64,000 nt of DNA from the NCBI RefSeq assembly GCF_014171595.1, contig NZ_CP050451.1, forward strand, positions 3,596,001-3,660,000, written 5' to 3'. The DNA is from Massilia sp. Se16.2.3 (lineage in GTDB: Bacteria > Pseudomonadota > Gammaproteobacteria > Burkholderiales > Burkholderiaceae_D). Each line of letters opens with the position of its first letter. Position 1 is the stretch's first letter. Below, one piece after another: positions 54,040 through 56,560 of this stretch. Under the pieces are notes generated by a model. It ran no database searches and had not been told where the DNA came from. It worked only from the letters and a program-made list of their open reading frames with translations. A program made the position numbers and the translations under genes.

Positions 54040-54414
54040 ATGACGAAGCCGCGAGCAGAGGAAGACAGGAGCATGGAACCCGCCGCCAACGCTGCACCGC
54101 TCTCCCTGCGCACCCTGGTGTATCGCTTTCTCTTCTTCGACTGGCTGTTCGCCGACGTCGGCCGTGCCCGCACGCCCCTGGAACGCCATGCGGCGCTGCA
54201 GCACAACCGGCGCATGGGCCTCTACCTGCCGATCTATTTGCGCCGCTGGTCCTTCCTGACGGTCTTCGATTTTGCCCTCGGCTGCCTGGCCGAACGGGCG
54301 CTCCAGGCCACCCTGTTGTCGGCCTGGTTTTTCACCTGGACCTGCATCACCGCCACCGGCGCCGTCGTGATTACGGTCGCGTGGGTCTTTCTTACCCAGG
54401 TCCGCCAAAGCTAG
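54040..54414 (+). CDS. small membrane protein of unknown function
   Basis: A 124-residue protein. A charged N-terminal 20 residues, an amphipathic region (TLVYRFLFFDWLFADVGRAR, LERHAALQHNRRMGLYLPIY), then two hydrophobic helices (FLTVFDFALGCLAERALQAT and LLSAWFFTWTCITATGAVVI plus following). No recognised family. Start ATG 54040; an internal Met at codon 12 (54073) is an alternative. Lies just upstream of the leuA promoter and ends 52 bases before it. Confidence 0.6.
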   Translation: MTKPRAEEDRSMEPAANAAPLSLRTLVYRFLFFDWLFADVGRARTPLERHAALQHNRRMGLYLPIYLRRWSFLTVFDFALGCLAERALQATLLSAWFFTWTCITATGAVVITVAWVFLTQVRQS

Positions 54415-54465
54415 CGGACTGGACAGCTGCCTCTCCTCCGCGCAACACTTTTCTTAAAAACATTC

Positions 54466-54494
54466 TTGACACCGAACTATATTCGGCCTACAGT
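54466..54494 (+). promoter_or_regulatory. strong sigma-70-like promoter of leuA
   Basis: Perfect -35 TTGACA (54466-54471), 17-base spacer, -10 TACAGT (54489-54494; four of six to TATAAT). Predicted start site is about 54500-54502, essentially at the ATG of the leader peptide. Confidence 0.82.
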
Positions 54495-54501
54495 CAAACG
54501 C

Positions 54502-54582
54502 ATGTCCTTTCATCTGTCCATGCCAATTTCCCTATCGCTCGCCGCGCGACACGCGCCGGCGCTGCTACGACTACGCGCCTGA
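54502..54582 (+). CDS. Leu-rich leader peptide upstream of leuA, probably leaderless
   Basis: A 26-codon ORF, MSFHLSMPIS through ALLRLRA then TGA. Six of 26 codons are Leu, three of them CTA, a codon avoided in GC-rich genes, with a dense cluster CTG-CTA-CGA-CTA-CGC near the end. No ribosome-binding site precedes it, and the predicted transcription start coincides with its ATG. This is the classic design of an attenuator leader peptide in which slow translation at rare Leu codons reports leucine shortage. The peptide is a regulatory read-out and not a structural protein. Confidence 0.75.
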   Translation: MSFHLSMPISLSLAARHAPALLRLRA

Positions 54583-54861
54583 GCCCGTCGCGCCACGCCG
54601 CGCCGCTTCGCTTCCGGTCTCGCCGAGACCCCCGTAGTCAGAGGAATTTGCACGATGAACAGCACCTGTCAAACCATTCGCGGCACCATGTTGCACCACA
54701 CCATGCACGCTGGCGCACGCATGTCGGTGGCCTCCGCTTTCGCCGCCGGTCCTGGCCTGCTGGCACTACCGATCGGTTGCCGGGCCTAGCGTCACCTGGC
54801 CCGCCCGGCAGCCAGCGCCACTCCCGCAGCAATCCCATTTCATTTACGCAGGAGTTTCATC

Positions 54862-56560
54862 ATGCTGAGCAACCCGTCATCGAAATACCGCCCCTTCCCC
54901 GCCGTTCCGCTGGCCGACCGCCAGTGGCCAGGCAAGACCATCACGCGCCCGCCGATCTGGATGAGCACCGACCTGCGCGACGGCAACCAGGCACTCATCG
55001 AGCCGATGAGCGTCGAGAAGAAGCTGCGCTTTTTCGACAAGCTGGTGCAGATCGGCGTGAAGGAAATCGAAGTCGGTTTCCCCTCGGCCTCGCAGACGGA
55101 CTTCGACTTCGTGCGCATGCTCGTCGACGGCAAGCGCATTCCCGACGACGTCACCATCATCGTCCTGACCCAGGCGCGCGAGGAACTGATCCGCCGCACG
55201 GTGGACTCGGCGGTCGGCGCGAAGCGGGCGATCGTCCACGTGTACAACTCGGTGGCGCCGGTATTTCGCCGCGTCGTGTTCGGCATGGAGCGCGACGAGA
55301 TCGTGCAGATTGCGGTCAATGGCACGCGCCTCATCAAGGAGCTGGTGGCCCAGCACCCGCAAACCCAATGGGGCCTGGAATATTCGCCCGAGTCCTTCTC
55401 GACCACCGAACTCGATTTCTCCAAGCAGATCGTCGACGCCGTCAGCGCCGTCTGGGAGCCGACGCCAGCGCAGCCGATGATCGTCAACCTGCCCTCCACG
55501 GTGGAAGCGAGCACGCCCAACGTGTATGCCGACCAGATCGAGTGGATGAGCCGCCACCTCGAGCGGCGCGACAGCCTGGTCATCAGCGTCCACCCGCACA
55601 ACGACCGCGGCACCGCCGTGGCGGCGGCCGAACTGGCGGTGCTGACCGGCGCCGACCGCGTCGAGGGCTGCCTGTTCGGCAATGGCGAGCGCACCGGCAA
55701 CGTCGACCTGGTCACGCTGGCACTGAACCTCTACACCCAGGGCGTCGACCCGGGACTGGACTTTTCCGACATCGATAGCGTGCGCCAGCTGGTCGAGGAG
55801 TGCAACCAGCTGCCGGTGCACCCGCGCCACCCGTATGCGGGCGACCTGGTGTTCACGGCCTTCTCCGGTTCGCACCAGGATGCGATCAAGAAGGGCTTCG
55901 CCGTGCAGAAGGCGGACGCGCTGTGGGAAGTGCCCTACCTGCCGATCGACCCGGCCGACCTCGGGCGCAGCTACGACGCCGTCATCCGCGTCAACAGCCA
56001 GTCGGGCAAGGGCGGCATGGCCTACCTGCTGGAACAGGAATATGGGCTGGAACTGCCGCGCCGCCTGCAGATCGAATTCTCGCGCGTGGTGCAGAAAGTG
56101 GCCGATACCAGCGGCCGCGAAATCGCCGCCAGCGACATCCACGCCCTGTTCGCACGCGAATACCTCGAGCGCGAGGCGCCTTACCGCTATGGCGCACACC
56201 GCATGACCGAAGACACCCGTGCGGGCGATGCCGGCAACAAGCAGGTCGAGATCGAGGTCACGGCCGAGCACGAGGGCCAGCCCTGCGTGCGCCGCGGCGC
56301 CGGCAACGGCCCGATCGACGCCTTCGTCAATGCCCTCGGCCTGGACATCCGCCTGATGGACTACCACGAGCATGCGATCGGTTCCGGCGCGAATGCGCGC
56401 GCGGCCTGCTACGTCGAACTGCGCGTGGGCGACGGTCCCTACCCTGTTCGGTGCCGGCATCGACAGCAACATCGTCACCGCGTCCTTCAAGGCCGTGCTG
56501 TCGGCGGTGAACCGCCACACGCAGGCGCAACCCGCGCGCACGGTGGCGATGGCCGCTTGA
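54862..56560 (+). CDS. leuA: 2-isopropylmalate synthase, one frame break near the C-terminus
   Basis: First committed step of leucine synthesis: 2-oxoisovalerate plus acetyl-CoA to 2-isopropylmalate. About 566 residues, the longer LeuA type (N-terminus [40 protein letters not shown] with the metal-binding Asp, [16 protein letters not shown] with HxH). The C-terminal leucine-binding regulatory domain runs from about residue 420 ([20 protein letters not shown]). Near 56443 (GGTCCCTACCCTGTTCGG) the frame moves by one; the second frame gives [19 protein letters not shown] to the stop at 56560. ATG 54862 follows AGGAG with 7-base spacing. Confidence 0.93.

Follow-up and report, generated by a model that had tools for sequence, protein, structure and literature searches.

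A leuA leader of Massilia sp. Se16.2.3 with two serial leucine-rich ORFs and a covarying stem: a probable leucine-responsive attenuator

The leuA leader and its two leucine-rich ORFs

The stretch of DNA analysed here, called the window in the following, comprises 64,000 nucleotides of Massilia sp. Se16.2.3 and holds, on its forward (+) strand like all features described below, the leuA gene (54862..56560) encoding 2-isopropylmalate synthase, which was recognised by Pfam matches to HMGL-like, IPMS_D2 and LeuA_dimer. The gene is presumed to be the one under regulation and is preceded by a Shine-Dalgarno sequence, AGGAG, at 54850..54854. It matches LeuA of the relative L001, where leuA is a single open frame of 565 amino acids, in two pieces that lie in different frames with a junction near 56438, and the LeuA_dimer match in the first frame ends at position 100 of 131 (the query ended at 56430). 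This change of frame within 56430-56560 is either a frameshift of the strain or a sequence error. Upstream of leuA, a sigma-70-type promoter was found at 54466..54494, composed of a -35 box TTGACA (54466-54471), a 17-nt spacer and a -10 box TACAGT (54489-54494), and agreeing with the consensus at 10 of 12 positions. Between 54200 and 55000 two promoter-like sites are present, compared with 0.2 (sd 0.4) in shuffled sequences. Ahead of the promoter, and read in the same direction, is an ORF of 124 amino acids (54040-54414); a Pfam search with it gave no match, and by eye a similar sequence stands upstream of leuA in L001.

The -10 box is followed after 7 bases by the ATG of a short ORF of 26 codons (ORF1, 54502..54582), and the predicted transcription start is the A of this ATG at 54502, which leaves a leader of 360 bases in front of the leuA ATG. 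The encoded peptide reads M S F H L S M P I S L S L A A R H A P A L L R L R A stop, and its six leucine codons are, in order, CTG CTA CTC CTG CTA CTA. Since CTA accounts for only 11 of 1208 leucine codons (0.9%) in 30 ORFs of the window picked by length and codon-position GC, the presence of three or more CTA among six leucine codons is improbable by chance (P = 1.5e-5). An earlier note on this DNA had already read a consensus promoter with its predicted start at the ATG of a 26-codon ORF carrying six leucine codons, three of them CTA, and this reading was confirmed in the sequence, the promoter being near-consensus.

The same note had made its interpretation dependent on conservation of ORF1 in relatives, and ORF1 is indeed conserved throughout the two sets compared. 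The distance between the -10 box and the ORF1 ATG is 6-7 nt in 50 of 50 parsed Oxalobacteraceae-type loci (46 distinct; family names follow record titles and general taxonomy), although the search pattern permitted 3 to 11 nt. These are 50 of the 52 loci formed by the window, L001-L027, L047 and L082-L104, with L020 and L024 excluded as lacking the conserved block described below. Likewise, 30 of 30 family loci obtained by a model search, some of which duplicate earlier sequences (e.g. L110, L143, L158, L165 and L170), carry separate ORF1 and ORF2 with the same spacing. A gap of 6-7 nt leaves no room for a Shine-Dalgarno sequence between promoter and ATG. From this promoter geometry, the leuA message would apparently be leaderless, with its first nucleotide at the ORF1 start codon.

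A promoter followed after 5-9 nt by an ATG and a short ORF with at least three leucine codons was detected in 96 of 149 leuA upstream regions, which are mutually related. Scanning the reverse strand of the 149 regions gave no hit, and dinucleotide shuffles yielded 0.6 of 149 on average. The 96 include eight Pseudomonas loci. Seventeen of the 53 misses (L029, L031-L046) have a weaker -10 box, and others include leuA genes without such a leader. The view put forward in the earlier note, that an apparently leaderless peptide heads a leader of the leucine type, is supported; the statement that leaderlessness is unusual here was not supported, the same geometry being found in these 96 regions.

The earlier note described one leader ORF, ORF1; a second one, together with the conserved hairpin that is likely the switch, was overlooked. 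ORF2 (54655..54789, 44 codons, ending in ...LLALPIGCRA) is preceded by a Shine-Dalgarno-like AGAGGAA at 54640..54646 and accounts for much of the length of the leader. Such a motif stands ahead of the in-frame ORF2 ATG in 52 of 71 two-ORF loci and was not found in 19. The terminal leucine codons CTG, CTG and CTA lie within 54757-54768, and the 3′ end of the ORF forms the 5′ arm of the covarying stem A. Between the two ORFs, fold and alignment indicate a hairpin GGTCTC-GCC-GAGACC (54616..54630), and at this position most aligned Massilia-type relatives have a CCGGC/GCCGG hairpin. To judge from the comparisons, ORF2 appears to be the better conserved half of the leader. When the leader was used as a DNA query, it was matched in 23 of 24 further genomes of its genus and in none of 16 belonging to other genera; each of the 23 matches covers the block made up of the ORF2 end and stems A and B.

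Codon usage and substitution pattern point in the same way for both ORFs. CTA makes up 99 of 189 leucine codons in ORF1 (the 24 sequences of equal length) and 98 of 263 in ORF2 (some parsed ORF2 being uncertain, e.g. in L021, L025 and L088), compared with none of the 968 leucine codons among the first 500 leuA codons in 25 relatives, and the ORF1 stop is preceded by CTA codons in one locus after another. Since both ORFs are loaded with CTA and leuA is free of it, each appears to sense this one rare codon. Among single-base codon differences the silent fraction is 0.513 for ORF1, where 0.333 is expected (24 relatives of equal length, 242 pairs), and 0.415 for ORF2, where 0.294 is expected (22 relatives, 33 pairs), the pairs being non-independent since the sequences are related. 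In the wrong frames, observed and expected silent fractions are 19% and 27% or 34% and 30% for ORF1, and 31% and 27% or 24% and 28% for ORF2. By these measures both ORFs seem to be under coding constraint, and their translation is predicted. Leader ORFs enriched in leucine and CTA are hence found upstream of leuA, the matching biosynthetic gene, as looked for in an amino-acid attenuator.

Stems at the end of ORF2 and the output step

Stem A is formed by a 5′ arm at 54775..54783 (GGTTGCCGG), inside the 3′ end of ORF2, and a 3′ arm at 54805..54813 (CCGGCAGCC). In an alignment of 41 cores, five of its nine pairs show two-sided changes and 97.2% of the cells are paired; none of 500 shuffles reached any of the five measures applied, and versions slid along the alignment scored lower. 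A conserved helix therefore lies beside the regulatory codons, with a 5′ arm that a terminating ribosome could cover. In the earlier note it had been proposed to align relatives and look for conserved CTA codons and covarying stems; the CTA codons were found in both ORFs as given above, and a covarying stem exists at the end of ORF2.

Measured from the first base of the stem A 5′ arm, the ORF2 stop codon starts at a distance of 12 or 18 nt in 80 of 97 loci, usually directly behind the arm, and at 3 to 207 nt in the other 17. In L023, L026 and L027 the usual TAG is lost and a stop follows two codons downstream; in L006 and L121 there is no ORF2 stop nearby. In six of the 17 (L080, L126, L129, L132, L133 and L138) ORF2 passes stem A and ends across the leuA start codon, with an identical offset in each, which suggests translational coupling of ORF2 to leuA in these loci; therefore, the switch cannot work there in the identical way. 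A pairing of ACCGAU in the start region of ORF2 with AUCGGU before stem A, noticed by eye, was discarded, as several relatives lack it and the window has it only in imperfect form.

For stem B, the 5′ arm has the consensus GTGGC, represented in the window by TGGC (54797..54800) with the outermost pair broken, and the 3′ arm is the GCCA (54817..54820) of GCCAC. It is nearly invariant in the 41 cores. Compensatory changes, counted in 104 covariance-model matches of which the last four are weak and probably due to chance, comprise a U-A to C-G replacement in six leuA leaders (L080, L103, L104, L121, L122 and L140) and a G-C to A-U replacement in two (L132 and L133). The number of two-sided cell changes was reached by 0 of 500 shuffles; the control slid by +3, however, gave 9 cells against 8. 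As one of six slid controls thus reaches its count, the alignments appear to support stem B only moderately. A free search for helices joining the loop of stem A to sequence downstream gave no clear excess over shuffles, and the case for stem B is accordingly built on its constant position and a small number of compensatory changes. Both stems have no base in common and follow the pseudoknot order 5′A-5′B-3′A-3′B. The connector between their 3′ arms measures 3-5 nt in 68 of 96 loci and never more than 10 nt, and we treat A and B as alternatives because, in our judgement, such a short connector makes joint formation unlikely.

Other arrangements were less convincing. The earlier note had described a leader of about 360 bases with hairpins; length and hairpins are as stated, but the fold of the whole leader (54502-54861) is no more stable than shuffled sequences (z = -0.44). 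A classical 1:2/2:3/3:4 arrangement around ORF1, using GCCGGC arms, was rejected because the positions of the leucine codons do not fit. The sequence GACTACG (54569..54575) in the leucine codon cluster of ORF1 can pair over 7 bp with CGTAGTC (54633..54639) beside the ORF2 Shine-Dalgarno motif in the minimum-energy fold of the window, and AGCAG/GTAG motifs occur in relatives. As a general feature this weak pairing was not significant: tested against shuffles, duplex energies fell below 0.05 in no more than 2 of the 27 loci of Massilia type and 2 of the 13 of Duganella/Janthinobacterium type. We keep it as no more than a hint. Neither the window's leader nor the sequence upstream of leuA in nine related loci matched an Rfam 15 model, and the covarying hairpin would be a candidate for a new family.

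How the stems would act on leuA is less uniform. A search for terminator-like sites in 54200-55000 found none, and the reading of a canonical terminator there was rejected. Counted over the 12 bases after stem B, at least six T are present in 14 of 97 loci (including L045, L035, L029, L109 and L119 as well as the two-ORF loci L047 and L144), and at most three in 59, among them the window with two. In the 14 loci an intrinsic terminator is possible; in the 59, Rho or another step would have to act. A helix that is mutually exclusive with the first and carries a U-tract terminator, a further mark of attenuators, was not found in the window, where B shares no bases with A and a terminator site is missing. 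The distance between stem A and leuA varies from 80 to 223 nt across loci, a spread that speaks against the leuA Shine-Dalgarno sequence being masked directly.

Distribution and variants of the leader

A scan of named genomes with LeuA provided 80 loci. The core model, with the window's own genome included in each count and with stricter filters that lose weak matches, matched 82 of 145 genomes in the family (E <= 0.01), 30 of 399 in the order and, among genomes sampled more widely, 6 of 229 in the class and 3 of 299 in the phylum. Among 100 loci with the core, which are those at hand and not independent (L111 duplicates L037), 71 have two ORFs, 22 have a single promoter-proximal ORF containing the core and seven are without a clear promoter-proximal ATG. 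Nineteen of the 22 single-ORF calls depend on a -10 box of the TNGACT type, allowed after inspection of the sequences, and in 18 of these 19 it lies 7-8 bases ahead of the ATG. Two-ORF loci outside the family are L080, L126, L127, L129, L132, L133, L135-L138 and L140-L142.

Reduced or diverged leaders occur within the family too. ORF1 is kept in L020 and L024 with no match to the core model. Of the 63 non-matching family genomes 20 were examined, and nine of them had a leuA match at E <= 1e-30. One of these loci, L172, is a diverged two-ORF leader found by the model at E = 0.0002. L171, from genome G012 of the same genus, retains ORF1 and the beginning of ORF2 but has, in place of the hairpin block, other sequence that carries an inverted repeat (GGGGTCGGAGCCC...GGGCTCTGACCCC) and may be a mobile repeat. 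No core was recognised by reading in the remaining seven of the nine, and the core model found none in L171 and L173-L179. Short ORFs of another kind were seen by eye close to promoter-like sites in L174-L176.

Leader ORFs of different kinds were observed in front of leuA in other groups. In Pseudomonas (L049, L055-L058, L060, L065 and L066) a different promoter-proximal ORF of the MNTAHTLILLRQHACLRLVSPRLRG type follows 6-7 bases after the -10 box; the core model gave no convincing match on these loci. Three Burkholderia/Paraburkholderia loci show by eye one leucine-rich leader ORF, of the MYRAQTTLSLLLARSTGLGLLLRAS type in L072 and L079 and a variant in L062; they neither match the core model nor pass the promoter filter of the scan of 149 regions. 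A search in a plasmid collection returned one match of 57 bases in a Cupriavidus record, where it is unannotated.

A proposed mechanism and its relation to known systems

We consider it probable that the leuA leader is a leucine-responsive, ribosome-mediated attenuator, in which two serial leader peptides would sense charged tRNA-Leu through the rare codon CUA. The arrangement, with leucine codons ahead of stem A and the ORF2 stop past the 5′ arm of that stem, is consistent with ribosome-mediated attenuation, and we count the loci retaining ORF1 without the core (L020 and L024) and the 22 single-ORF loci of the 100 as natural reductions in support of such a model. As the promoter geometry suggests, a ribosome would load on the bare 5′ end at the ORF1 ATG. 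ORF2 with stems A and B would then be the direct switch. When leucine is short, the ribosome would stall at the leucine codons ahead of stem A, stem A would form and disfavour stem B, and RNA polymerase would continue into leuA. Under an ample supply of leucine, the ribosome would move on to the stop behind the 5′ arm of stem A and cover this arm, so that stem B could form and expression would be off. For the off step, intrinsic termination may act in members with a U-rich stretch after B, and termination assisted by Rho perhaps in those like the window. Both the polarity of the switch and the output step are what we infer, the latter because only 14 of 97 loci, the window not being one of them, have six or more T after stem B. 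ORF1 would serve as an upstream gate that checks leucine earlier, and its mode of action is the least certain step.

For the part played by ORF1, several proposals compete. Tentatively, the two ORFs could work as a two-stage relay that reads the rare CUA codon twice in succession, in which ORF1 is translated from the bare 5′ end by a ribosome independent of a Shine-Dalgarno sequence, its stalling state decides on the translation of ORF2, ORF2 then sets the state of stems A and B and the read-through into leuA, and in some lineages the ORF2 stop overlapping the leuA start would feed ribosomes to leuA. It is rather unlikely that only ORF2 with stems A and B responds to leucine and that ORF1 is non-sensing, either a pioneer ORF keeping ribosomes near RNA polymerase or a relic. 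Single-ORF relatives (22 of 100) do manage without a separate ORF1, and the intergenic pairing of its leucine codons tested negative; but ORF1 is loaded with CTA no less than ORF2 (99/189 and 98/263), CTA precedes its stop in many loci, and L020 and L024 retain it even without the core. The opposite arrangement of the earlier note, one leaderless ORF1 with terminator and antiterminator in the following 280 bases, accounts for the conservation of ORF1 and promoter and is nevertheless very improbable, given that the block common to 23 of 23 matches of the same genus is the end of ORF2 with the stems, and that ORF2 has its own CTA load and an in-frame excess of silent changes.

A further group of explanations concerns what follows translation. 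Control by Rho in the manner of tna, which we regard as possible though doubtful, would make the C-rich stretch after ORF1 (and ORF2) a Rho site, open after release at the stop codon and masked by a ribosome stalled at the leucine codons, with stems A and B mainly placing pauses. The window is without a terminator-like site or U-rich stretch, the leucine codons of ORF1 lie near its stop, and Rho was proposed for actinobacterial cys leaders without terminators (PMC1262725). However, the C-richness was judged by eye and the covariation of stem A would go unexplained. Improbable in our view is that A and B form together as an H-type pseudoknot bound by a protein or ribosome, like the actinobacterial LEU element. 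The order 5′A-5′B-3′A-3′B in the alignments would allow it and a pseudoknot upstream of leuA is described for Actinobacteria (PMC1262725), but a connector of 3-5 nt in 68 of 96 loci and of 10 nt at most was judged short for spanning a 9-bp helix.

Regarding the attenuator reading that we prefer, control by leader peptides is textbook knowledge, as a rule with one sensing ORF per amino acid, and ribosome-mediated attenuators are known for the leu, ilv, trp and his operons of gamma-proteobacteria. Like these, the leader described here combines a short ORF rich in codons for the end product, alternative helices and a stop at the 5′ arm of the first helix. Unlike them, it has two leader ORFs for one amino acid, the first apparently leaderless, and most examined loci are without a clear U-tract terminator. 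A survey of 2004 reportedly dealt with proteobacterial attenuators. Background on such attenuators of amino-acid operons is given by PMC1262725 and PMC7298713.

Single features of this leader have counterparts elsewhere. LeuL1 of Streptomyces leuA is described as a leaderless leader peptide without a typical Rho-independent terminator (PMC8079986), and the trpL message of Sinorhizobium starts at the ATG of TrpL (PMC7298713). In both, the message thus starts at the leader ATG as predicted for ORF1, and LeuL1 likewise stands upstream of leuA; but each has one leader ORF as described there and belongs to another phylum or class, whereas there are two ORFs here. The actinobacterial LEU element consists of a leucine leader ORF and a pseudoknot before leuA (PMC1262725). 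It resembles the present leader in that two helices in pseudoknot order come after a leucine leader ORF and a classical terminator is absent, and differs in that its leucine codon run pairs at the base with the leuA Shine-Dalgarno sequence, whereas here the element lies 80-223 nt from leuA and a second leader ORF exists. By eye, a CCTGC/GCAGG pairing of the LEU-element kind is possible in the window. Two short ORFs in one leader, mgtM and mgtP, are reported for Salmonella mgtCBR, where they answer to ATP and proline (PMC3641672). The likeness lies in two leader ORFs within one leader (71 of 100 loci here) and attenuation-like control; yet mgtM and mgtP sense two different signals and are not called leaderless in the abstract, whereas both ORFs here are leucine-rich. 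For ermBL/ermBL2, two leader peptides are reported to be required for induction (PMC8274638); this is an antibiotic-induced translational attenuation, in contrast to the amino-acid supply proposed here. Leaderless transcripts have been mapped in Burkholderia and Cupriavidus (PMC4603805, PMC7563307), and a word search for leuA in these two texts gave no mention.

Leaderless leader peptides and tandem leader ORFs are hence each already known separately. Within the open-licence full-text literature, we recognised no account of this leader or of two leader ORFs for the same amino acid. By its working parts, the leader would be of a known kind with what may be a new architecture.

If the relay applies, a sharpened, threshold-like response to leucine would be conserved in many beta- and some other gammaproteobacteria. 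A leader that checks one amino acid twice, once by leaderless and then by separate initiation, would raise the testable question of what is gained from a second sensor, be it sensitivity, lower noise or protection against false read-through. It would also raise the question why leader peptides favour leaderless initiation.
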